Assembly (NCBI RefSeq): GCF_022376445.1
Contig: NW_025954991.1
Location: 248,001 to 312,000 of the forward strand
DNA length: 64,000 bases
Direction of reading: 5' to 3'
Source of the DNA: Fomitopsis serialis
Taxonomy: Eukaryota; Basidiomycota; Agaricomycetes; Polyporales; Fomitopsidaceae
In this document: positions 47,395-64,000 of the stretch, one piece after another
Numbering within the stretch: the stretch's first letter is position 1
Layout: each line of letters opens with the position of its first letter
Made by a program: the position numbers and the translations under genes
Notes under the pieces: generated by a model
Told to the model about the DNA's origin: nothing
Seen by the model: the letters and a program-made list of their open reading frames with translations, nothing else
Databases searched by the model: none

Positions 47395-47762
47395 GGTGGT
47401 TCACTCTCGCCGAGACAAGGACAGCCTGAGTCAGTATCGGACGCTGTAGCTCTGAGATGTTTAGGACACAAAGCCTGCGAGTCGCTTGTGTCTGTAAGTC
47501 GTCGGTGTATCAAGTCGTAGAGACTGGAACCAGCATATACTTGAGACGATTGAGTGTGCTGTCGACGCGTATGGCAGTGAGCGTGTGGGGAACCGTACTA
47601 TGGGCGCCTATCAGGTCGGTAGGCTGTAGCATAGCTTCGGTCATGCTTCGGGCCTGACGGCGTCGACCCTCTCCCGGGCCCGAACCTGTCCCGAACACTC
47701 AGTCTGAGTCTCAGTCGTGTACTCACACATTATACTGTATTCAGCACATTCTTTGCGTCGAA
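47395..47762. promoter_or_regulatory. Divergent promoter region, EXO84 / PRXL2-like
   Basis: Only 368 bp separate the two start codons, and the genes point away from each other, so both promoters and 5'UTRs must fit here. No obvious TATA box was seen on either strand. Confidence 0.5.
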
Positions 47763-48830
47763 ATGGCGGATCACGCTCCGCAAAGTTCAACTCATACATT
47801 GATACCATCGACAGAGGCCATCACCAGCACTGCAAAGCTTCCTGTTTTCGACTCGCAAGGCAACTCGACCGATTTCGGGAGCCTCTTTCGCGACCAGAAG
47901 ACGATTGTCGTCTTTATCCGTTCCGTATCATCCATTCGCTCATACATAGACAGATTATACTGAAAGTATGGTCGTACTACAGGCCACTTCTTTTGCGGCG
48001 TATGTGTGGACTCACTCACGTCGTCGGCCTATACTCACGTACAGGACTACCGTTTTATCTAGAGCTGCCAGGTTAATCGCTTCATTCAGTGCACGTCGAT
48101 TACTTATGAATTTGGGTAGCAATATGTAATGCAACTCGCGGAAGTTCCGCAAGAGTCGCTTCAACAAGCTGGGGTGCGTCTAGTTGTGATAGGATGCGGA
48201 GACTGGCAACCGATCCAAAACTATTGTGGTACGTCTTATGCCTCTCAGCACGGCTAGCAATTTGTTGTGCGCTGTGATCCTGCATCCGAATATCACAGTT
48301 CGACTCAGGGCGACCCGCAACCTTGTACCGCATTTGACGCGCTCCCACAGACACGACCGGCTTCAAAGGTGAGATGTATGCCGACCCGTCGCGCGCCCTG
48401 TACACGGCCTTGGGACTAGTGGAGAGCCTGGATGTTACTCCTTCTGGACAGGAGAAGCGTAGCTACATTACCAGAAGCCTCCTCCGCAACGCCCTCCGGA
48501 GCATCTTGGTCAGCCTCCCCCAGTCCGTCGCATTATTCGCATAAACGCTGACAATTATTTGTGATCTTGAAGCAAGGGCCACTGAAAACCCCGCAACATA
48601 TAGGGAAGCAGGGCAAAATCTCGCAGCTAGGCGGAGATTTCGTCTTTGGTCCGGGCGAGACCTGTTCATTCGCATCGAGGATGCGCCACACGGAGGATCG
48701 TGAGTGCTCAGCGTCACTTCTTCAGTGAACCAATCGATTTATCATGTCATGACCGTCGTCAAAATCCGCCTTCGAGCCAGACATCGAAGTTGCTGACCTG
48801 ATGCGCACCGCTGGAGTGGCAGAATCGTGA
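47763..48830 (+). CDS. PRXL2 / AhpC-TSA-like thioredoxin-fold protein
   Basis: Six exons: 47763-47919, 47983-48005, 48120-48228, 48351-48508, 48573-48699 and 48781-48830. The total is 624 nt, 207 residues, in frame throughout. Visible blocks are AKLPVFDSQGNSTDFGSLF, KTIVVFIRHFFCGVC (a CxxC at the thioredoxin-like active site), LAEVPQESLQQAGVRLVVIGCGDWQPIQNYC, TTGFKGEMYADPSRALYTALGL, GPLKTPQHIGKQGKISQLGG and DFVFGPGETCSFASRM. This pattern fits the peroxiredoxin-like 2 group of the AhpC/TSA superfamily, a probable thiol reductase or antioxidant. The first intron uses a weak donor (GTTCCG), accepted because it restores IRHFFCG. The 23 nt second exon and its donor are the least certain part. Confidence 0.85.
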
Positions 48831-49219: not shown

Positions 49220-50352
49220 TTAGAATGTCGTCGCATCTATCATGTACTCCCAATGCGCGCCGATTATGTCCTGCAGCCGGTATCGAGGATCGCCCACATG
49301 GAACCTAATATATCCCCGCTCAAAACTGTCCCAAGCCTCCCTCGCTGGTCCTTCACCGAGCGTGCGACGGATGCGCTCCGAAGCGGCTACGACCTCGTCG
49401 ATGACTTCGCGCAGCGTGGCAATAGTGGACCTGCCCGTGATGCGCGCCCGAGCGTGGATGTACGATGCGACCTCGCCGTCCTGCTCCTCCTTATAGAAGG
49501 ATAAAATGTCACTGCAATGGTGTGTCAGATCTGCGTGATCCATTTCACGGCACTTCACTCACTTTGCGTGGTTGATATACAGGCAAGCATCCCTTAACAG
49601 AGATGTCAGCTTCCAATCTTTCAGCAGTAGCGAGGACAAGACTTACGGGAAGACTTGGATATAAGTGTTCTCGCCTGGCAAGTCGCCCTTGCTCCATATG
49701 AACGCTGCGTACGCTTCCGCGTCGCCGTTCATGCCACGGGAGAAATCCACAAACGCCTTCGAGTTCGGCTCTACGAACGACTTGCTCTCCGGGTTCCCGA
49801 TCAGCTCGCCATTCAAGAAGCGCAGCGTGGACGAGAAGATGCTGCTCGCGCAGAAGCTGGAATAGAACTGGCCCATGTTCATGATCACTCTGACGAACTC
49901 GCCTAGCATCCCCCTGTCGTCTCGAAGGGACCCGTCGCATATCCGCTGGTAGAAGTCTTGCGCACCCACAGCGTCGAATAGCTCTGGGGTATCTACCGCG
50001 GTCAGGAGCGCTGTGTAGATCGCTATGGCTACCCTGGCTTCGATGTCCGACACGTGTGGATAGCTCGCCTCAGTGATGACGAGGCCCGTCACAATGTGCC
50101 GCCGGATACGTTGCTCAAAGGGCCAGGTGCGGGTAATCGCCTTCACTCTGGCCTCGAGCTCCGCGTCGCGCGAGAATCTGGGAAGTGCGACATTCATTCT
50201 GTGCAGGAATTCCCGGATAGACACTTTGGCCACATCTGCGATGGAGCCCTGGGTAGCAAGGTCAGTGCTTGTGAACGACCTCGTACGATGGACAGCATCC
50301 CTACCTTTTGCGGGATGGCACTACCAGTCTTGTGGAGAGTTGATCCTGGCAT
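49220..50352 (-). CDS. Trichodiene-synthase-type terpene cyclase, copy A
   Basis: Four exons: 50352-50305, 50248-49647, 49592-49563 and 49511-49220. The total is 972 nt, 323 residues, no frameshift. The start MPGSTLHKTGSA is the first ATG that splices in frame. Near residue 102 is the Asp-rich site, here VDTPELF. At about 227 is the NSE-type metal triad NDILSFYKEE, and near 303-304 the diphosphate-sensing Arg-Tyr pair (DPRYRLQ). These positions fall within a few residues of D100, N225/S229/E233 and R304/Y305 of Fusarium trichodiene synthase, so the assignment is firm at family level. The reaction should be Mg-dependent cyclisation of farnesyl diphosphate; the product cannot be predicted. The Asp-rich site has DTxxE where B and C have DD. 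The third exon is exactly 30 nt, as in the other two copies. Confidence 0.9.
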
Positions 50353-51170
50353 GACTGCAAGCTGTAACAGTCCTTGTGAGTCCCGCTGCTCAGATTTCAA
50401 CACTGAGAGTTCCGACGCTGACCTGTTGATATGATATCGACAACTTGAAATACTTCGACGGTTGGGATGATGGGCTACCAATGCGCGCTGCTGCCCTTTA
50501 TGTAAGTACCTGCCACCTGAGCATGCCGCGGACGCTTCCACTGCTCGAGCCTTCCGTCGACGATGCGCTATGATGCAGTAGCATCCATGATAGGAACACA
50601 GTGGAAGCGCGTTCAGAAGCCAGACACGGACACTCATCGCTCCCGAAAAAGATACGTGTGTCCAGACTCCGCGGTGGTTGATCAAAGCTACGAGATAATT
50701 TGCGTTATGCATCGTTGAACTGTCCACAATGACCACCGCCGCGCGGATCCAAATGCTTGCGCTCAGTTCGTGGCTTGTAAAGGAACATGAAACTGTTTGC
50801 TTCAAAAAAGGAATGCCTCACGCCACTAGCGCCGCGGCCTCCCGTCTATAGACGTTGGAACACAGCCGCTAGACACCATCGCCAACGGAACAGCGTCATG
50901 TAGTTCATTTGATCTGCGCACCGGAAGGTCACCGAGGGGGCGTCAGCTAGTAGCCTGAGCTTTGCAGCCTACCACACACCTTCCGCGGAGCAGGGACGGC
51001 GCCGTTCAAATCCCGCCGAATGGCTCATGTTACTTATGTAGAGCTTAGAATTTTCTGTTTGACAGAACTACGAATGTAACACAATCAAGGCATCTGGTCA
51101 TGTAGTGCTTACATCTCTTCTATTGAATACAGACACGGTGCGAAGTTCTAACGGCATGACATGACACATA
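50353..51170. other. Spacer between TRI5-like copies A and B
   Basis: 818 bp with a weak TATA-like element (CATAAAGG on the minus strand, about 50502-50495) 150 bp upstream of copy A. No gene was recognised. Confidence 0.4.
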
Positions 51171-52367
51171 TCAGAGGCCGGTAGCTAAGTATTCTCCGCC
51201 AAGTAGCTCCTGGAGTCGATAGCGAGGCAGCACCAGATGCAGACTGACAAAGCCAGTTTCGAAGCTGTCCCAGGCCTCCCTCGCGGGCCCTGGAGGAACC
51301 ATTTCGCGGATTCTGTCTCGAGCAACGAACCATTCGTCGATGACGTCGTGGAGTGTCTCGGACACGTTCTTTCCTGTAACTGTCGCGCGCGCATAGATGT
51401 AGTTGTCCGTGTCTCCGTCCAATTCCTCCTTGTAGCACGAAAGTATGTCACTGATGAAGGCATGAGTCAGCCGTACAGACAGAAGGAACGATTTGAGACG
51501 AGCTTTTACTTCAGATAATTGATGTATATGCGCGCATCCCTGGGAGCCACATCTCAATAAGGTTCGTTGCGGATTCCTTTGAAGAAACTCACGGGATCAC
51601 TTCCACATATATCTTCTCCTCCGGGAAGACCGACTTCTCCCAAATGAAGCATGTGAATGGGTCCGGGAGCCCCCCGAGATCCCTCCTCATCACCACAAAT
51701 GGCAACGTGCGTGGGTGTATGGCACCGCCCTGGTCAGGTGCGGTCTCTAGCATAGCACCATTGAAGTACCCTAAAGCACCGATGAAGACGGCGTTGGCTC
51801 CAAACTCGGGATAATAAGTCCACATGCTGTGCAGCACCTCTCGTAAAGCGACGACGAAGGTGGAGTCCTTTGGCGACGGGCAACACAGCTGCCGAGGGAA
51901 GTCCCGTGCGGACAGGGAGTTGAACAGGTTGATGTCGTCGAGGTAGGCAATGAGCGCACAATACAGCGCGATGGCAGCCCTCGCGTCGACGTTGGTGATA
52001 TGGGTATAGCTGGTCTCGGAAAGCGTAACTCCTAGGAGAATTTGCGGACGCATTTTTTCCGCAAAATCCCAGTTGCTGGCGATTGCCTTCACTCGAGACC
52101 TGAGTTCATGATCTTGTACGTATGTCGGCTTGGAGATGCTCAGTGCATTCAAGAACCCTTGGATGACTTCTCTGGTAGACGGTACTGTCGGCTGGTAGCA
52201 GTCTCTTTAGGAACCGGTCATTCGGCTAAGGCAAGAGAGACCTCACCGTCTGATACGGCGACGATGTCGCGGTGACACTACAATGGACAACGCATCATTG
52301 ACACGTCAGTTTCAGATTCAATGCGCCGGCTCGAGTACTCTCACCTCACGGTTCCAGAGAGAGGCAT
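51171..52367 (-). CDS. Trichodiene-synthase-type terpene cyclase, copy B
   Basis: Five exons: 52367-52350, 52277-52247, 52184-51593, 51539-51510 and 51450-51171. The total is 951 nt, 316 residues, no frameshift. The start is MPLSGT; an intron at 52349-52278 removes an in-frame TAG, which is its own acceptor. The metal sites are YLDDINLF (Asp-rich) and NDILSCYKEE (NSE type), and the C-terminal sensor pair is PRYRLQ. The sequence differs from copies A and C more than they do from each other (for example WTYYPEFGANAVFIGALGYF in the middle), so it may make a different product. The 30 nt exon (51539-51510) and the split Asn codon of the NSE motif are shared with A and C. Expected activity: cyclisation of farnesyl diphosphate in the cytosol. 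Confidence 0.88.
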
Positions 52368-52446
52368 AGCGATCAGCCGTGAAGGGGACGATGAGCAGTG
52401 AGGTTGAGTCTTTGACCTGGAGTGTCAGTAATGCATCGCACCTCAC

Positions 52447-52453
52447 CTTTATA
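52447..52453 (-). promoter_or_regulatory. TATA box of TRI5-like copy B
   Basis: TATAAAG on the minus strand, 80 bp upstream of ATG 52367. This spacing suits transcription starting shortly before the chosen start codon. Confidence 0.55.
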
Positions 52454-54867
52454 GTGGCAGACGAAAATCGCATAACACAATGACGCTGGCGATGCCAGAG
52501 AACGTCAAAGTAGGCATGCTGCGTAGGCCACACAAAACAATACCACAGATGGGTGGGGCGTTCGACTTCACGGCAACGCGCCCAACCAGCTAGTCATGCA
52601 CGCGCAGTAGACGACTTCCGTTTTTATGAAGCACCTTTTACGTGATCATTCCGATGGAAATCGTCTGATATCTGGACTCATACTCAGTGATAGCGAGTTC
52701 CCTACAGAGTTGGTGAAGCATACCTGCACCCGGGCAAGGCCAGTTGCAACAAACGCGACCACGGTTTGCGTTTACAACTTCGGAGCGGCGTACCTCCGGT
52801 ATGACCGACAAGCAGGAAGATTGCTAGTGCATGGATGATGCGTTCGTAGTTGGCAGCTACATACTGCGATGTTTCCGACAGTTCACCGGGTGTCTCTGCA
52901 AGATCCTCCGAGTCGTTCGATCATCACCACATCCAGCCTCACTGAACAGGAGTGGGCGATAACCCACTTGCCAAGCTCCATCGTTTTCCGTGGACTCCTT
53001 GGCAGATAATTTGTCAATGCAAGCCACCTGTGCCTGCCAGTGATTAACTTGAACGGGCCGCCACCGAGCCGCTAGCACGGAGTCGCCAGAGTCGCCGAAG
53101 GAACTGCCATGGCAGCGCAAAGGCTCTGTCATATTTCCTTAGCTATCTTGTACAGTCGGCCAGTGAGTTACCTGTACGGACTTAGTAGCCCTTGCTTCAT
53201 AACGCAGTCGTCACAACAACTGTAGTTCGTATGGTCATTGCCAGCTTGAGTGGTCACGGTCGACCATTCGGACCGCTGTCCTATCGGACCGGGAGCTCGT
53301 GTCCGATGGTTGCGCTGGTATGACCACATTGGATGTTAGCATGCACACGTATCCGTGAACGAGTTCACAAAAGCAGTATACTTCCCCAGAGATGGTTTGG
53401 TAGCTCTTTGACGGTAACTTGTAAGTACTGACAGCGGCGGCCGCTTGCCAGTGGGTGCGTCAGTCGATGTCGGAGCGCTCAGCCACATGTGCATGAAGCG
53501 GGCGCTAGATCTACGTACTACTACTAACTTAGTATTCGTTCGGAAGCGTTCCAACTCCCCGGACCTTGTCTCGCGGTGGATGAATAGCATTCTGACAGAA
53601 AATATGATGTTCTCCGGTTTCTCGAAGTGACGAGATAGGCTGTGGGATCCCAGGTAAGTAGTGCTACAGTAGATCTCTGGTACGTCACGGTCGATGCTGC
53701 CAGAGTCAGCTATATGAATGAACCTTGTTCACTGTTGACCATGATGCAGGGCTACACCGACCCAGAAGAGGCACACCAGTACTCGCACTGCTGTTGACGG
53801 ATGCAGGCGACTGTCGCGGAGGTGCTTCAATCACGACTCATCCCTATTGACGCGGATGTCTCAGTTGCACTGGCGATTGATGTCGAGCACACATACCGGA
53901 CACCACGTGTATTCACAGAATGTCCCGGCATGACCATAATCAGATAGCAAGTGGCACACCGACCGTAGCATGATGCATATGCACCCCACATCCGCTGAAG
54001 CCCTCTTGTATCGTGTGCATATCTCTCTACATCGTCTTGAGGGGTTGTTTAATATCCCGGAATTTTAGGTCTTTGTTTGGATAGCACCACAAATTCCTGT
54101 CATGAGCAGACGCTGCACTCCTCAATTCAGATACTCGATGGACACTCTAGTCCTTTGTTGATAAGGAATTTACGACTGGTGACAGGTCCTCCATTGCACG
54201 TCAGACACCTCAGATTTCGACACTGAGTACTGAGTAACGCACCGCAGTTCCACATGTGCGAGTCGTGGAAGATTTAGGTGGACCGATACAGCGGCAACTG
54301 GCACGGCACTGCGACTGGGAAGGGCTTCCTCTGCATACGCGCATCGAGAATCACAGCTCGTGCGGAGTCATTCGGAAGTACGCTAAGCCTTGCATAATAG
54401 GGACCCGTCCATGCGAAAGTAGGAGTCTGCACTTAGACGACGTACGAGCTCAGGTAGTCTGGCTCACTGAAGTACACTCAATCACTCGTAGAAGTAAGCC
54501 TAGCGCCCCGCAACCAGATCAATAGCTCGACGTACTGACGAATCATGCATAGTATTGTACAGCAATCTGTTCAGAATATGGGCAAAGACGAGTTGAGCAA
54601 TCTGATCCTCGGGTCACCCGGAGTGGTTCCCATGAGAATACATAAGAAGAGGCACATCGATCTCGCGGGCGTCATCGCGAGCACTGCAGAAATAGATATG
54701 CGACTCACTGAGAAGAGTTCTAGCAAAGGAGAACAATTGATTAGACTCACCACCGAGCAAGACAGGATTCCACCAGAGCGCGGCATGGAATCATGTTCCG
54801 TGATCCTTGCTCACTCATCCAATGGCCGGAAAAGCGAGCGACGATAGACATCTTTGTCGAAGCACGA
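52454..54867. other. Gene-free 2.4 kb between TRI5-like B and the F-box gene
   Basis: No supported gene on either strand. Short open frames (for example plus 54545-54847, 100 codons) have no recognisable motif. No repeat was noticed. Confidence 0.4.
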
Positions 54868-56493
54868 TTATGACCATCCCATTTCCTCCGAGGCGTCGAT
54901 TTTGCGAATGGCATAGAAGCGATTCCCCGTCTGAGTGACCTTGGCGTATCCTGTAAGAATGCTCTCGTCGATTATGTTGCAGTTCATGAAGTGCACTGCT
55001 GATAGCTTTCCGCGACCTGCTCCGTGCGCCTGCCCATTCCAGAGATGCTTTTGAAGCTTCAACAATGCCCGGTTGGTATCAGAACTGACGGGCCCGAAAT
55101 TCACGTTACGGAAGGTCAAAATCTCCAGACGCGGTAAGCGCGGGGGCAGGTCAAAATCTAGGGTGTCCTCTTCAAAGTCTATGTTGTGAGTGAGCCCTTC
55201 CGAGAGGCTTTCCACGGCATATGGACCCTCGATCGTGAGGCTCGTGACGTTGTGCGTGGCCGCGAGAACCTTGTATAAGGCGAACGGCGGGATGAGTTCG
55301 TCGCCATACAGCAAGAGCGTCTCGAGTGATTGCGCTGGAAGGTAGCGGCATATGTGTGAGGTGACCCGCGAGACGGCAAACTTGCTGGAAACAACCCCGG
55401 ACAGGTCTACGGTGACTTGTTCGGGCTCCGGAGTGGTCGTTTTGATATAGAAGCAAGGATCCCCGTAGTAGTCAGAGAGGCCGATGCATAGGCCTCGAAC
55501 ATCGTTCAGGCCAGGCAGCAACTCGACAATTACTGGAAGCAATTGGGACAGCTGAGCGGCGTCTCTTGTGACATGGATAGTGAGGGAAGAGAGCCGAGGA
55601 GCACCAAGATGCGTTAGCAGCTCAGCACACTCGGATTCAGTTGTGGAAAGATGAAGCGAGCGGAGATGCTGCAGTACGACGCGACCATAGAACTCGGGAT
55701 GAAGTTCTGGGAATTCCATGGGTGCACAACCATCACAGAATATGTTGGCGGACTCGAGGGAAGGCGTGTTCTGGAGTATGCGAAGCACTTCCCATACGTC
55801 TGGGCACATGAAGGCATCACCCCCGCTGATACCGATGGAGAGGTGCTTCAACGTCGAGGAGATCAGGCCGTCTAGACGGACGGGACAGTTCATAACGAGT
55901 AGGCGCTGAAGTAAGGGTGTGTGTGTGTACCGTAGCAAGGTAGCAAACACCGCTCGACCATCGGGTGAAGTATTAGGACGTGCCGTCGTCACCCAGGGCC
56001 CTTGCACACTGAGTATCTCCAACGCTCGGGCTGGCATCTCCTGAAGCAGCGTTTGCATCTCTTGACGGAGGCGGGGTTTTTCCGTGAATAGATGGAGCGC
56101 ACGGATGCGGGGAAGCGCTCCGAGCAGCACTGCGAGAGCCCTAGCCTGTGAGTCTTCATACTCCTCTATCTTCCGCCTATCGCAACCGGATTTTACGATC
56201 AGCGGGTCCTCGAGATATGCCGTGACCTCGAGCGGAACCGTCCCGGATCTCGCAACGAGCTCGGACATCCACTCCGCGTTGAGAGACATGTCGAGCCGAC
56301 TCCATAGGCGAGGGCAGCGGAGAGCTATCGCGCGCCATCGCCGACAGACGTGCGACACCACGATCCAGCAATGGCGCGTACAAACGCGTCCTTCGTCGTC
56401 GCCGCATCTGTGAGAGCCGTGAAGGGGAAAATATTGTCCTGCGGTGCGCCTGGGATGCTGGCAGAATATCTCCTCCAGTATCTCCACGGGCAT
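54868..56493 (-). CDS. F-box protein, single exon, 541 aa
   Basis: A single uninterrupted exon from ATG 56493 to the stop at 54868. The N-terminus MPVEILEEIFCQHPRR and the later VSHVCRRWRAIALRCPRLWSRL form the classic basidiomycete F-box pattern (LPxEILxEIF...VCRxWRxIAL...LW). The rest contains irregular leucine-rich repeats such as LRSLHLSTTESECAELLTHL, PRLSSLTIHV, VTSLTIEGPYAVESLSEGL and PRLEILTFRNVNF. It is unlike the three paralogues elsewhere in the window and belongs to the large F-box-like LRR family expanded in mushrooms. It is a presumed SCF substrate adaptor with unknown target. The long intact frame shows that this part of the assembly is largely free of indels. It lies between TRI5-like copies B and C; there is no evidence that it serves terpene synthesis. 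Confidence 0.88.
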   Translation of the reverse strand: MPVEILEEIFCQHPRRTAGQYFPLHGSHRCGDDEGRVCTRHCWIVVSHVCRRWRAIALRCPRLWSRLDMSLNAEWMSELVARSGTVPLEVTAYLEDPLIVKSGCDRRKIEEYEDSQARALAVLLGALPRIRALHLFTEKPRLRQEMQTLLQEMPARALEILSVQGPWVTTARPNTSPDGRAVFATLLRYTHTPLLQRLLVMNCPVRLDGLISSTLKHLSIGISGGDAFMCPDVWEVLRILQNTPSLESANIFCDGCAPMEFPELHPEFYGRVVLQHLRSLHLSTTESECAELLTHLGAPRLSSLTIHVTRDAAQLSQLLPVIVELLPGLNDVRGLCIGLSDYYGDPCFYIKTTTPEPEQVTVDLSGVVSSKFAVSRVTSHICRYLPAQSLETLLLYGDELIPPFALYKVLAATHNVTSLTIEGPYAVESLSEGLTHNIDFEEDTLDFDLPPRLPRLEILTFRNVNFGPVSSDTNRALLKLQKHLWNGQAHGAGRGKLSAVHFMNCNIIDESILTGYAKVTQTGNRFYAIRKIDASEEMGWS

Positions 56494-57061
56494 TGCAGCA
56501 ATCGGACCACGGACAGCCTCGAGAAACTAGGCATTTTGTGAGTCTTCCACCGTATCCTAGAACATGTGTAACCTTACTGGGACATTTGGTGGGCACCCTT
56601 GGGTGTCCATTTGGATACGCGCGGCGTTGCAGGGCCCGTCCGCCTGCCATTGACACTTATGAAGTACCGCAGAGAAACGGTCCCAAACATAGACCTCACC
56701 TAAGGCAATATTCGTTACGGCTGCGCTGAAGGTTTCCAGCCACTTGCTGCGACGTGCAGTGCCGAGAGGACAAGACAAGCGTACATGTTTACGGACAGGC
56801 TCGAGCCTGCCAGTGAGAGCGATTCGGCTTCGAACGAGTTTATGATCCGTGATCGACTGATCGATTAGTAAGCGCCAGCGTCCAGGTACTTAACAAGGCC
56901 CAACACAAATTCGTTACAGTTGCGTTGAAACCGCAAATCATGATTAGACTATGCGGAGTCATATGCAATACAGTTGGTCTAGTACACGCATTTCTAGATT
57001 CGTTCTATCCTTGATACTCCTACAGCAGCGCCTTAGTACTTCCTCTTGACGCACTCTATAT
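56494..57061. other. Spacer between F-box promoter and phosphoglycerate mutase 3' end
   Basis: 568 bp holding the upstream region of the F-box gene and the 3' flank of the mutase gene. Nothing else was recognised. Confidence 0.4.
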
Positions 57062-59344
57062 TCACTCGTGAGCAAGGAGGGAGCGGCCGCTCATTTCTAC
57101 AGAGAACAGTCAACAAAAGGCCAAGCACAAAACATGGACGACGTGACCGACCTTCCGGTTTGCCAAGACCCAGGATATCCAGCACGGTCGGGGCAACATC
57201 GCATAGCGCGCCCTCCTCTTCCTCGCCGTCCTTCTTGTCCACCGTGAACTTGAGCTTCTTCGGGTCGCCAGTCATGATGAACGGTACAGGGTTCGTCGTG
57301 TGCGCGGTGTGTGGCGCGCCCGTCTGCGGGTTGACCATCTGCTCCGCGTTACCGTGGTCGGCCGTGATCAGAAGGATGTAGCCTGCCTCCTGGCACGCCT
57401 TGTATACGGTGCCGACAGCCGCGTCGGTATGCGAGATGGCTTCAACAGCGGCATCGTAAATGCCAGTGTGCCCGACCTAGAGGGAAGGTCATTGGCCGAA
57501 TAGAACAACAGAGGGAGAAGCAGACCGACCATATCCGGTGGTGCGAAGTTGCACATGACGAATTCATGGTCGCCCTTCTTGACGATCTCCGCGACCTTGT
57601 CCGCGACACTTTGCACGCTCATCTTGGGCTCCTTGTCGTAGGTCGCGACCTTCGGCGAGGGGATCATATGCCGCTCCTCGGCTGCGAACTGCTTCTCGAC
57701 ACCACCATTGAAGAAGAACGTGACGTGCGCATACTTCTCCGTCTCTGGTGTCTGACGTAAGGAGAGGCGAGCTAAGTGTATGAAGAGACATACCGGCCAC
57801 ATGTGCCTGCTTGACACCCTCCTTCGCAAGCCACTCGGCAAGAACGTTGGTCATTGGCAGGGGAGGGAACGCAACAGGGAAGGGGAACTCTGCATTGTAC
57901 CGCGACATCGTGCTGATGTGCTACCAATTCAGCATTGCTCGTTAACGAGGCTACTCCTGCTTAATAGCAACTTCAATTACTCACGAGGTTCTTGGGGACA
58001 TCGACCTCCATCGGCTTGTCCGGAAGGCCCAGCACAGTCGCGATCTCACGCACGCGGTCAGAGCGGTAGTTGAATAGGAACAATGTGTCCCCCTCTGTGC
58101 AAACATCTGTCAGATTCTCAGCGATGCGCATACATCGAGTGGACGCACCCTTGATACGACCCTCGTCACCGTTCACGATGATGGGCTTCAAGAACTCATC
58201 CGTCTCATCCTTCTTGTACCTCTCCTCGATCGCCTTGACGACGTCCTCGCCCTTCTCTCCCTCGCCCTTGACGAGACCATCACGGCGATCTTGACTCGCT
58301 CCCAACGCTTGTCACGGTCCATCGCGTAGTAGCGGCCAACGACGGTCGCGATCTGGCCGTACTTTTCCTTCTCAATGAAGGCGAGCAGGTCCTTTGCGTA
58401 GCCAGCAGCGGACCGAGGTGCGGTGTCGCGCCCGTCACCGAAGAAATGGATGTAGACATGCGGGACGCCCTGCTCCTTGGCGGTCTCGAGCAGAGCGTAG
58501 AGGTGGTTGATATGTGAGTGAACACCACCATCGGAAATCTAGCAATTAGGGCGTCAAGGCGAGTTAACATATTGTAACGGGTGTAGCGCAGAAAGCACCA
58601 GGATCTGAGAGGCCTAGGTCATGAGGATGATAAGGGCCGTAGAGAGGCAGGAACGGGAAGACTGAGCAGGTCTTCATAGCATACATCCACCCTTTGGCTG
58701 GAACTAGCTTCAGTCTTCATGCCCTTCCATAACATCATGCAACCCTTCGTTTGTCAATCTAGAGTACTCTGTACGAGACGTCGTGCCTCGGCTCAGAACT
58801 CAACACCTTGTGCAGATTGCAATCCACCCGCTGACCAAGTACCTCCGCAGTCCCGGTACAGATTATTACACTCACCAAGCCGAGAAAATGGAGCCGGCCG
58901 TTGCCCTCCTTTGCGTGCTTGCAGCTCTCGAGGATGACCTCATTCTTGTGGAACTGCTTCTTTTTGATAGACACGTCGATCTTGACGATGTCTTGCCAGA
59001 CGATACGTCCAGCACCGATGTTCAGGTGGCTTTGCCAATACTGAGATATGTGTCTTTTGATGACCAAATGCACTCACCCGACTTCCGAGTTACCCATGAG
59101 CCATCGCTGAGACCGACAGCTATACCATGCGCTTGGAGAGTCCGTACGCTGTGATCCTTGGCAATGGTGTCCATGTTCGTCGTGTCTCCAGCCGAGATGG
59201 CATCCCCCTTCATGTTCTTCTCCGGTGCAATGCCCCATCCATCGTGAACGCTGTGACCACCGTAGAGACTCTGAGCCTCTCCCTGAGAAGACGACCGACG
59301 ATGAGCACTCACATGAGGCAGACTTTGTTCTTCACCTCAACCAT
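57062..59344 (-). CDS. gpmI: 2,3-bisphosphoglycerate-independent phosphoglycerate mutase
   Basis: Nine exons: 59344-59313, 59250-59078, 59029-58876, 58538-58149, 58094-57985, 57920-57794, 57744-57530, 57476-57152 and 57096-57062. It interconverts 3- and 2-phosphoglycerate in glycolysis using two Mn ions. Visible blocks are [40 protein letters not shown] with the phosphorylated catalytic Ser, [77 protein letters not shown] and [15 protein letters not shown]. Two single bases are missing: just before MGNSEVGH in exon 2 and after RVKIAV in exon 4. With both restored the exons total 1563 nt, 520 residues, normal for the family. As assembled, the catalytic Ser is out of frame. Intron 3 (58875-58539, 337 bp) is unusually long. 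Confidence 0.96.
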
Positions 59345-60280
59345 GTTAGTATGTGCTGGTGAGTGGGTGTATGCGTGTATACCGACAGCGTGCGGCCTTA
59401 AGAGCGGCCAAGATGTTCAGCGTAGCGTCTGGACTGTGACGCAGGTCCTCCGAGGCTTCGCCCACTCCTCCCCATTTCAACCCCATTGGTCGCGAATCTT
59501 ATCGATCTGCCGCGCTCGCCCGCAATTAACGCGTTCGGCCCGTCTCGAGTCGAACCAGATGCATGCTGGGCATTGCGGCAGCGTCGCCGCCATGGCCAGA
59601 TATTGCTCACTACTGACGCTGAACCGTAATGCATTTGGTACAGTAGTGCAACTGTCCGATCGTTGCACGTGGATACGCACAGAAAAACATGTATGCCAAT
59701 GCCTATGCCCGATGCATAAGTAGCTCTGCACTCAGGCATCGTAGGATTAGGGCATTGCCGCGTTGGCGGCGAAGCAGTCGTCGGCAGGTGACAGCAGGTT
59801 GTCTGGCTTATTTGTGTGCAGATAAGGATGTAGCGGCCGACCTGAATCTGTGCGGGGCAGGACAATGCAGCGTGACGGTCAGCGTAGCAGTGGTACGGCC
59901 ATGGTGGCATAAGTAGGCTGTGTAACGGGGAGCGGGACTGAAACAGGCGTAGCAGTCCGGTTGTCAGACAGTAGTCCGTACGTCGATTTCAGAATAAGCG
60001 CCGAAGCTGGCGCCGCCGCCAGAGACAGGCTGCAGTCAGTTGGCAGACAGCAACTACGACGTACACACACAGAGTTGCCACCATGCCACGAACAGTACTA
60101 CCAATTGGCACAATACCAACAGGGGGATGCCTCTAGATCTAAGGCCTTGTCCTGTAGGTGCATAGCAGGACCGTTACTGGCTGTGTTCAACGCTCCAAAC
60201 CGAGGGCGTACGAACATCGATCCTGGCTGGATGATATAGGTGTCATTTCGACGGCAATGCACTCTGGTACAATCTCCCTT
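59345..60280. other. Spacer between phosphoglycerate mutase start and TRI5-like C stop
   Basis: 936 bp. It holds the upstream region of the mutase and the 3' flank of TRI5-like C. No other gene was recognised. Confidence 0.4.
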
Positions 60281-61418
60281 CTAGTAGGCCTCACACGCCT
60301 CACACGCCATGCTATCCATCATATAGTCCGTGCCAATGACCTCCTGCAGCCGGTACCGAGGGTCGCCGATGTGGAACCAGATGTAGCCTGCCTCGAAGCT
60401 GTCCCATGCGTCCCTTGCGGGACCTGTACCAAGATGTTCTCGAATGCGTTCGACCGCGGCCACGACCTCGTCGATCACCTCGCGAAGGGTGTCGTACGTG
60501 GCTTGTCCCGTCACACGAGAGCGAGCACGTAGGTAGGTATCGTCTCCCCTTCAAGTTCCTCCTTGTAGAACGATAGGATGTCGCTGCTGCTCGTGTAAGT
60601 ACTCTGACCGTACTCCTGGTAGACAGTATGTCCGCACTGACTTGACATGATTCACGTATATACAGGCTTCCCTGTCAATCCACGGTTAACCAGTGCGTCG
60701 TAAAAAGTGAATACCTGACTCACGGGAATATATGGATATATGAGGTTTCATCGGAAAAATCTGCCTTGTCCCAGATAAAGGCCGCATACGCCTCTGGATC
60801 CCCTGATAAACTCCGTTGTAAGTCGACAAAACTCTTCGACCGTGGCTCCAGGAAGGACGGGGTGGACGGATTGCTAATCATCTCGCCGGCGAACCATCGC
60901 ATGGTAGAAGATATGATGCAATTTATGCCGAAGGCAGGGAACAAGCGACCCATGTCTACGAGGAGTCTTGCCAGCTCCCCGAGGAGTCCTCGATCCTGGT
61001 GGGCAGACCCGTCGCACAACATCTGAGGGAACTTGTGCGCAGATACGACACCGAAGACCTCTGGATCGTCAAGGGCCACCATGAGAGCGGTGTAAAGTGC
61101 TATTGCCACCTGGGCGTCGATGGACGTGAGGTGCGAATAACTCGCCTCGGTCATAACGACACCAGTGACGATATGGTGGTTAGTATGATCGTGACTTGGA
61201 CTCGGAGATGGCCACGTCTGGGTGATTTCCTTTACCCGAGATTCCAGGGCCGGGTTGCGGGTGGACTTGGGGGTGGCAGGAACGTTCATCTTCTGTAAGA
61301 AATCGACTATTGCGTTTTTGGCGACGTCCTTGAGCATCTAGTACGAGCGCGCAGGTGATTGACAGCATATCCGTGAGGTTAGTGTTGAGCATACCTCATC
61401 TTTGGGCGTACTCTCCAT
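60281..61418 (-). CDS. Trichodiene-synthase-type terpene cyclase, copy C
   Basis: Four exons: 61418-61395, 61337-60724, 60671-60642 and 60583-60281. The start is MESTPKDE. The Asp-rich site is VALDDPEVF, the NSE-type triad is NDILSFYKEE with its Asn codon split by the last intron, and the sensor pair is DPRYRLQE. Copy C resembles A closely (shared VTGxVxTEASY, EAYAAFIWxK, LREVIDEVVAAxERIR, GPAR-AWDSFE). One base is missing in exon 4, in a G run right after YKEELEG. With it the exons total 972 nt, 323 residues, the same as copy A. Expected function: ionisation and cyclisation of farnesyl diphosphate; product unknown. The clean repair suggests a sequencing indel, but a recent loss of function in this copy is possible. 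Confidence 0.88.
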
Positions 61419-61577
61419 AGCAGCGGTGATCGCGAGGTAGAATTATCTGTCTTGCTAATCAGCCGAGCCCCATAATGTGATTGGGTGAATACACACCTCC
61501 TAGTCAAGCCAGGTATATCGTTGATGCTCAGCGCTGCGTGCACAAGCGTTGACCTTGCATCGCGGTCAGCCGTAGAC

Positions 61578-61585
61578 CTTTTATA
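61578..61585 (-). promoter_or_regulatory. TATA box of TRI5-like copy C
   Basis: TATAAAAG on the minus strand, 160 bp upstream of ATG 61418. Confidence 0.5.
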
Positions 61586-63786
61586 CTAGCGATGAGTTGA
61601 TGGAAGCTATATGATGACTCGCAGAGACCTCACCATCCCTGTATCGCCAAGGTGAGTACCAAAGGAGGTTGTTGATCGAAATTCCTTGCAACGTACAGTG
61701 TCTCCACAGGTCCAAGGACATGCTCACCAACATTTACTACGTGGCTCAACCATGTGTAATGCACTTCCCTAAGGCGCACCACGCCGATGCGTGATTGAAT
61801 AACTCAGTGTACTGCACCTTCCATATGCATGCTGGTGGCTGATAAACTTGTGCATAGGACCACCAGAGCCCGAAGTGAGGTGGGCGATGCGCGTGAAGCA
61901 TCCGCCGCTAGAAATTAGGCCGCGGAGCGTGCTAGCTTCCCCAAACCGTAAGGCTTCTGGGAACACATTTCCCGACTACGGTCAGCATCTTTCATACTAG
62001 CTCGAACCTAGAACACCACTCACCCCCTATCAAGACAACTTGTTGTACATTGTAGGTCAGGTACTGGGACAAAATGACAGAGCTATCAGCCGAAGGACAC
62101 GATACCTGACTGTGGACATAATGATACAGGGGCATTGACGTACAATTTTCAAGAATCACGTGTCTAAGCGAAACATCGACACCCGTCGTGTTTCGAATTG
62201 GAAGTGTCCTCCACTAGCTGAGCGCGACCATTTGACGCGTCCCTATGCCTTCAGAAAGTACACCGTATGCTTCTAGACAGTCCGCTCAGCATCGGTCAAT
62301 GCGACGCGCTTAGAATGAGACAAACTAAAATTACAGCCATGGAACATCACCCACAACCTTTTCCGTGATTGCAAGGGGCCTCGGTGGTGGAAGAAGATAT
62401 GGACAACGATTAGCCATGCTTCGCTTCGCCTTCGAACGTGGATGTTTCGTCGTCCCTGGCAAGAGCTCTCAGCATACGAAATTGGAGGAATTCCGAAGAA
62501 GAGTCGGACAAAGCGATCCTCAATTCAGCCCATGGCGGCAGGCTGCATTGTTCTAGACACCGAAGTCGGCTGGTAAAAGACCCCGGGACACTTACAATGA
62601 TTCATGAAGAATTGCATACCTCGCCCGTTCCGCTATGCAGCGATGGTTCGACCAGCCTCCAGGGTAACTTCTTGTCAGAGGACAAATGCGATAGGGACCC
62701 AGACATAGCGCCGACTCGGAGTCTCGGATACGACGGACTGTTTCAGACACCTCCAAGGTATGACACGATGTACTTCCTGCGAATCACGTCGAAGACGAAA
62801 GCAAGTTAGTCTCGGGAGTAGTTTGATAGAGGTAAAATCGGTCCTTAGTCGTTCCTTGGATGACGGTCTTTGCATTCATCGTCAGAACGTTGACGGCAAC
62901 AGTTATCTCGTGGTATGAGGGTAGACTCTGAACACATAATTGAGTGATCAGTAACAGCAGATCAATGAGTATCGAACGGCAACGATACCTCGACACCAAG
63001 CTGTTCTTATTCTTTAAGTTCCTGGGCCGCACATGTAGTACCAGTTGTAGACTCGACGCTGCGGGCCCGGCGGAACGCGATGAGAGATGAGATCGATGAG
63101 ACTTGACATGTTACATATGGTCGAGGGCTGGGCAGTTTGCGTGACGCGCGTCAGCCAATGCCTATGCCATACACTGGTTGAATGAACAGTAGTGTCATCG
63201 CATACCATAACTTAAGTACTAGCGCCTGACTAGCGCGCAGCGTAGCGGCAGCGGCGCACGCCACATTGTCCCGTTATGGAAGTCCATCACAAGAATTAGA
63301 ATTTGCCCGGTTGGCAGAAGCCTCAAAATGCAGAAGCACTGGGCAATGATTAATGAGGCTCAACGTTGAAACATTCAACCACAAGGCAGTTCCCAGTATT
63401 AGTGTGACGTGTACCTTCGGCGCGCTCACTAACATTCAGTTCACTTCGACGTCGCTCCACCTGCGGATTTGAGAAGGTCACGGGCCGTCCATTCTTCGAC
63501 AATGCATAATGTTGACTCACTCGAACTTGCTAGTTTCCAGGTTCTGATGTCCTCATCGGCAGCTCGATGGTCAGACAGGAATATCCGGAGCGCGCGGAGG
63601 TAGAAAGAATTACCTACTCTGCCCAAGTAGACTAGCTCGGTGATGATTCAGTCTGTCTGCTAAATCATGGTCACATCTCTGTGAGTGATTCAATGCTCAA
63701 GGGTCGGACCGGAGTTCTGGCTGACGCGAATCCAATCCAACATAGTACGACAAGGAATTACTGGAGTAGCACTGCAATCCGCATGG
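61586..63786. other. Divergent intergenic region, TRI5-like C / sesquiterpene synthase
   Basis: 2.2 kb between two divergently transcribed terpene synthases. No supported gene; minus-strand frames around 62.7-63.2 kb are short and unrecognised. The promoters of both synthases lie at its ends. Confidence 0.4.
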
Positions 63787-63792
63787 TATAAA
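63787..63792 (+). promoter_or_regulatory. TATA box of the sesquiterpene synthase
   Basis: TATAAA located 58-63 bp upstream of ATG 63850, the usual distance for transcription starting about 30 bp before the ATG. Confidence 0.65.
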
Positions 63793-63849
63793 GAGCCAGT
63801 GGTTCGTCCGAAATTCAAGCTCAATCCTTGATATCCACGGCCTTTGCAC

Positions 63850-64000
63850 ATGGAAGGCTACTGCACGAACACTTCATTCACCCTCCCTGAAACTATGGCC
63901 AATTGGCATATCAATCCTCATTACGATGCAATGAAGGCTGAATCGAATGCCTGGTTAAAGAGCTTCAAGCCCTTCAACGAGAGATCTCAGCTAGCATTCG
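63850..64000 (+). CDS. Classical basidiomycete sesquiterpene synthase, N-terminus (runs off right edge)
   Basis: ATG 63850 opens a frame to the window end (50 codons). The visible part has FTLPETMANW, then HINPHYDAMKAESNAWLKSF and ERSQLAF. This matches the start of the class I sesquiterpene synthases common in mushrooms (LPxxLxxWPWPRxINPHYxxVKxxSxxWxxSFxxF). By family these cyclise farnesyl diphosphate with Mg; the DDxxD-type and NSE motifs lie beyond the window. The PWPR segment between Trp and HINPHY is absent here. The gene diverges from TRI5-like C across 2.4 kb and belongs to a different subfamily from the three TRI5-like copies. The assignment rests on 50 residues but the signature is distinctive. 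Confidence 0.85.
   Translation, partial: MEGYCTNTSFTLPETMANWHINPHYDAMKAESNAWLKSFKPFNERSQLAF

Follow-up and report, generated by a model that had tools for sequence, protein, structure and literature searches.

A probably old tandem array of trichodiene-synthase-type genes in the brown-rot polypore Fomitopsis serialis

In the trichothecene (TRI) cluster, the terpene synthase gene TRI5 is accompanied by further TRI genes, among them that of a TRI4-type P450. Here, we describe a group of trichodiene-synthase-type terpene synthase (TDTS) genes in Fomitopsis (Neoantrodia) serialis, a brown-rot polypore of the Fomitopsidaceae (Polyporales). The DNA that we analyzed, hereafter the window, is a stretch of 64,000 nucleotides corresponding to positions 248001-312000 of contig NW_025954991.1 (C235), in an assembly of 66.19 Mb and 806 contigs. 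This is presumably the Neoantrodia serialis assembly, GCA_022376445.1, that PMC11678574 lists in a table with 66.7 Mb and 13 terpene synthase (TPS) genes, the text giving 29 predicted secondary-metabolite clusters for this species. We consider it likely that the TDTS genes here, of the clade V type, form an old tandem array evolving by birth and death, in which one gene, TS1, has been duplicated in a species-specific manner, while the presence of a classical synthase, TS4, is incidental.

The closest described enzymes are the TDTS themselves (PF06330), which are numerous in basidiomycetes (305 of 517; PMC11122449) and with which the genes of the array share the Pfam domain, the NSE motif, the RY pair and the predicted fold. 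TS1 and its copies differ from these enzymes by a Thr or an Asn in place of the second Asp of the Asp-rich motif. According to PMC10608071, PF06330 is present in 25 of 172 characterized sesquiterpene synthases (STS). Brown-rot Polyporales are also the source of the clade V synthases of Postia (Rhodonia) placenta, which have a DDxxxxD-type motif and include PpSTS-25, producing myrcene and linalool, and PpSTS-29, whose product is unidentified (PMC6116744). In PMC9948225, clade V was limited to sequences of P. placenta and P. chrysosporium. The relatives listed in our searches include TDTS of P. placenta, and one array gene, TS6, fits the clade V DDxxxxD motif exactly by eye. Tandem arrays have been described as well. 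PMC10210940 reports that 25.4% of basidiomycete sesquiterpene cyclase (STC) genes are in tandem and that 15% of tandem genes are in different clades. The neighboring genes TS1 and TS2 fit the definition used there, by which the next copy is no more than four genes away on the same scaffold, the difference being that we deal with one particular locus, for which conservation across genera is probable. Synthase arrays in tandem, and ones that mix clades, are known from basidiomycetes, and this locus fits the usual growth of such a family rather than a novel type of cluster. Among the open-licence papers listed by our searches for the species and for arrays of this type, none deals with this particular array in its title or abstract.

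Three synthase lineages and the copies of TS1

The synthase genes of the array are the following.

TS1: 49220..50352, minus strand; intact TDTS, four exons, 323 amino acids (PF06330, 32.0 bits on the main exon)
TS2: 51171..52367, minus strand; intact TDTS, 320 amino acids by the deposited model (PF06330, 27.1 bits on the main exon)
TS3: 60281..61418, minus strand; TDTS with a frame change in its last exon as assembled (PF06330, 25.8 bits on the main exon)
TS4: 63850..64000 in the window and onward to about 65.1 kb, plus strand; classical synthase (PF19086, 66.1 bits)
TS6: 67,193-68,304 in window coordinates (contig 315193-316304), plus strand, outside the window; intact TDTS, sister of TS3
TSA: contig 226564-227705, plus strand, outside the window; intact copy of TS1
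TSB: contig 229330-230471, plus strand, outside the window; intact copy of TS1, deposited as P0002

A first-pass annotation, made from the letters of the window, had recognized three TRI5-type synthases and the start of a classical one. All four are borne out, since the main exons of TS1, TS2, and TS3 score above the curated cut-off of PF06330 (TRI5; 25.2 bits), and TS4 begins at 63,850 and runs past the end of the window. However, the array is larger than the four, as it includes TS6, TSA, and TSB. The spliced product of TS1 is 100% identical to deposited protein P0001 (323 amino acids), and TS2, whose first exons were taken from the deposited model, shows 100% identity to deposited P0164 across the query. 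Genome-wide, merged profile-search matches amount to 25 classical and 12 TDTS loci, alleles counted.

The relationships within the array were assessed in a tree of 37 rows, composed of 31 of the 51 distinct listed proteins (fragments, most unnamed rows, and P0006 were left out) and six main-exon pieces from F. serialis. TS1, TSA, and TSB form a clade restricted to F. serialis (support 100/98), which is nested in a wider clade of Rhodofomes, Daedalea, and F. betulina (100/100). TS2 clusters with Rhodofomes and Daedalea (100/100). TS3 clusters with Rhodofomes (100/90), and TS6 is sister to this TS3-Rhodofomes group (100/97). Since these are three separate clades, each with a Rhodofomes ortholog, TS1, TS2, and TS3 are best read as old paralogs. 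On sequence evidence, the array comprises three old lineages, TS1, TS2, and TS3/TS6, each with an ortholog in Rhodofomes roseus, that have been kept side by side. The orthologs in R. roseus (of TS1, TS2, and TS3) share one reported length of the longest contig, 416,417 bp, and those in D. quercina (of TS1 and TS2) share another, 649,369 bp.

The local gene birth proposed in the first-pass annotation therefore applies to part of the array, the lineage of TS1 with TSA and TSB, and not to the three window genes as a set. It is true that TS1, TS2, and TS3 belong to one family and lie on one strand inside 12.2 kb, as a recent local amplification would leave them. However, the main exon of TS1 is only 52% identical to that of TS3 and 32% to that of TS2, and each of the three clades has orthologs in another genus. 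Only TSA and TSB are recent copies. That the three TDTS genes of the window arose by a recent amplification is ruled out by the tree, and we give this reading practically no credence.

TSA and TSB are located 67-72 kb to the left of TS1, and these left copies show DNA identities of 84.3% to window positions 50,503-49,212 and 82.5% to 50,591-49,212. A 474-bp F-box fragment, 81.4% identical to an F-box-like gene of the window, sits between TSA and TSB, so that the TS1 copies must have arrived as a block. The dN/dS ratio is 0.21 for TS1-TSA, 0.24 for TS1-TSB, 0.41 for TSA-TSB, and 0.23 for the two alleles of TS1, both of which have an intact reading frame. A second copy of the window between 33.4 and 59.1 kb is provided by contig C443 (26 kb), with piecewise identities of 94-98.5%. 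As judged from these comparisons, TSA and TSB are the sole recent births in the array, through a species-specific segmental duplication of TS1. This leaves duplicated synthases that can be compared with one another, namely old paralogs, a species-specific triplet, and a pair of alleles, in a group for which little is known of the TDTS products, and such a set would allow a direct test of product divergence after duplication.

Frame breaks in TS3 and TS4

As assembled, TS3 and TS4 contain frame breaks, which the first-pass annotation had not mentioned. The early exons of TS3 are intact, and the frame shift in the last exon falls directly past the NSE motif, which TS3 carries; its R. roseus ortholog, P0007, has a continuous frame. 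For TS4, motifs DEYTD and NDLASYNKE, the latter interrupted by an intron, are seen in the translated listing, but the gene lacks one continuous frame, with four frame changes counted by hand against its R. roseus ortholog P0045 (70% identity). Conserved residues of TS4 pick up again after every frame change, and no nonsense substitution was noticed. These breaks call for caution with existing gene models. The deposited TS3 model, P0006, bridges the break and does not retain the complete NSE motif, and the predicted TS4 model, P0044, seems to splice round the breaks.

A neighboring housekeeping gene is affected likewise.

2,3-bisphosphoglycerate (2,3-BPG)-independent phosphoglycerate mutase: 57033..59336, minus strand; iPGM_N and Metalloenzyme matches in several frames, frame-broken as assembled

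In this gene, iPGM_N positions 36-129 and 122-194 are found in different frames of the window, and C443 differs in length there. Over 11.5 kb, the window and C443 differ by 78 substitutions and 24 gaps. The 14 gaps to the left of 58.28 kb measure 2-29 bases, with one 4-base gap near the 3' end of the phosphoglycerate mutase gene, whereas the ten gaps at 58.28-59.10 kb are all single-base and come with zero substitutions. Over the 10.5 kb before this stretch, the alignment shows no gap of one base. At seven of the ten single-base gaps, the extra base is in the window, and because the stretch is the final 0.86 kb of C443, that contig may itself contribute part of the noise. Base quality in the window is doubtful from about 58.28 kb on (the doubtful zone seen against C443 being 58280-59143), and calling the breaks in TS3 and TS4 mutations would therefore require reads.

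It is quite possible, if somewhat doubtful, that TS3 and TS4 are true pseudogenes and that the array is partly decayed, which would represent the death side of birth and death. Their frames change relative to continuous R. roseus orthologs, and each is present as a single copy, no second copy of TS3, TS4, or TS6 having been found in the assembly (the TS6 query consisted of its first 806 bases); C443 stops about 1.1 kb short of TS3. Moreover, TS6 is intact further to the right, where the sequence is consequently not uniformly poor, so that low quality might be confined to one zone, or the breaks might be genuine. This reading has to contend with the return of conserved protein letters in TS4, with the broken phosphoglycerate mutase, and with the run of single-base length changes against C443. 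Assembly error is at least as likely an explanation for the breaks in TS3 and TS4.

Catalytic motifs and predicted chemistry

The NSE motif, NDxxSxxKE, is found in TS1, TS2, TS6, TSA, and TSB, with its Asn codon split by an intron. A loss of this Asn, suggested by the Ser in raw open reading frames (ORFs), was rejected on account of the split codon. The Asp-rich motif reads DD in TS2, TS3, and TS6, DT in TS1 and TSB, and DN in TSA, its first Asp (D102) being invariant in 33 of 33 aligned sequences. The predicted fold of the TDTS is that of a class I terpenoid cyclase. By sequence and fold, the nearest solved structures are the longiborneol synthase CLM1 (8h4p) and SydA (8yzx), but at 23-26% identity their products cannot be transferred to the TDTS of the array. 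Fusarium TRI5 is distant (16-18% identity by structural alignment).

From these features, we infer that each intact TDTS could act as a class I cyclase. The Mg2+ cluster would be coordinated by the NSE triad together with the leading Asp of the Asp-rich motif, Arg, Lys, and Arg-Tyr would serve as pyrophosphate sensors, and farnesyl (or geranyl) diphosphate would be ionized. The most likely route, admittedly a guess, would be a 1,6 ring closure via the bisabolyl cation. The paralogs might yield different volatile hydrocarbons, to be used unmodified or tailored by P450s encoded elsewhere.

Gene neighborhood and the question of a biosynthetic cluster

The first-pass annotation had seen no P450, transporter, or regulator in the window, yet had proposed that it is possibly part of a mixed biosynthetic cluster continuing to the right. 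A motif scan, run without a positive control in this genome, detected no P450 heme motif in C235 218-356 kb (138 kb), two matches to a looser pattern being judged chance, and the 113 P450 matches listed for the whole genome (92 of 577 candidates scored) include none on C235. No P450 signature that could stand for the TRI4-type P450 of a trichothecene cluster was seen in these 138 kb. For regulators, the earlier description needs correction, as an SNF1-type kinase is encoded at 18.9-20.7 kb. Two tandem ABC transporter genes are present at C235:318.4-331.7 kb (window 70.4-83.7 kb), 6-20 kb beyond the end of the window and starting about 2 kb beyond TS6. They are 65-69% identical in DNA across four pieces, and we read them as ABC-A type, their nucleotide-binding pieces scoring above the cut-off and their ABC-A-type membrane domain below it.

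The gene content was determined using Pfam on 60 selected ORF pieces from the window and its flanks. Besides the phosphoglycerate mutase and the kinase, the window encodes a CBM21 protein, Exo84, and two F-box-type genes, one slightly below the cut-off. Exo84 and the kinase lie to the left of the synthases, and the phosphoglycerate mutase and the F-box-like gene between TS2 and TS3; no whole gene was recognized between TS3, TS4, and TS6. The left flank contains COX5A, histidyl-tRNA synthetase, and a PEP mutase-like piece below the cut-off, and the right flank, in addition to the ABC transporters, an MHYT protein, a HATPase_c protein, RCC1 repeats, and a tetraspanin.

If TDTS and classical products were synthesized jointly and left the cell through the neighboring ABC transporters, the proximity of TS4, which by match positions is 2.8-3.5 kb from two TDTS genes, would make sense. 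Under a naive, uniform null, 0.011 classical loci are expected within the span of the array plus 5 kb per side (naive P about 0.011), but P rises to about 0.055 for a classical locus near any of the 12 TDTS loci, alleles included. The grouping of the TDTS is accounted for by duplication. For the closest classical relatives of TS4, the reported longest contig measures 2,103,578 bp (R. roseus) and 115,264 bp (D. quercina), which differs from the values for the TDTS orthologs in both species. With a housekeeping gene between the synthases, no P450 signature in the 138 kb scanned, and no 7-9-mer shared among five 400-base promoters at the chosen thresholds (a weak test, random draws having a mean of 0.03 or less), a mixed cluster is very unlikely and that earlier proposal is not supported. 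TS4 happens to lie inside the TDTS array. Rather unlikely, too, is a "bouquet" locus, in which the Fomitopsidaceae would retain an array of three TDTS lineages, with no tailoring genes alongside, for the sake of end products that are unmodified volatile hydrocarbons (or monoterpenes), the DT/DN motif of the TS1 lineage marking a distinct catalytic variant. We therefore favor an old TDTS array evolving by birth and death. Some points weigh against it: the evidence for shared contigs consists of reported contig sizes, as opposed to sequence from R. roseus or D. quercina, the motif sought in the P450 scan can be interrupted by introns, and the second Asp of the Asp-rich motif is mostly missing in TS1 and its nearest relatives, whose activity is not assured.

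Two further features of the window adjoin the TDTS genes.

F-box-like gene: 54868..56526, minus strand; between TS2 and the phosphoglycerate mutase (23.1 bits, cut-off 24.3)
Open frames left of TS1: 47658..48076, plus strand; peroxiredoxin-like by eye, unconfirmed

The peroxiredoxin reading was dropped, as two pieces gave no meaningful Pfam match. Between TS4 and TS6, C235:313281-314621 is an inverted 1.38-kb copy (86%) of part of an RCC1-repeat gene region (346602-347971), with weaker matches flanking it on both sides. Window 13.8-17.6 kb shows several DNA matches of 63-72%, and one short piece of 81%, to C235:238.8-243.3 kb in the left flank. These matches probably reflect a diverged family of genes or repeats; five ORFs taken from both regions had no Pfam match. 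Elsewhere in the assembly, two more TDTS genes are borne by contig C390, part of which (C390:260001-267225) has a 99.3% identical second copy in contig C326.
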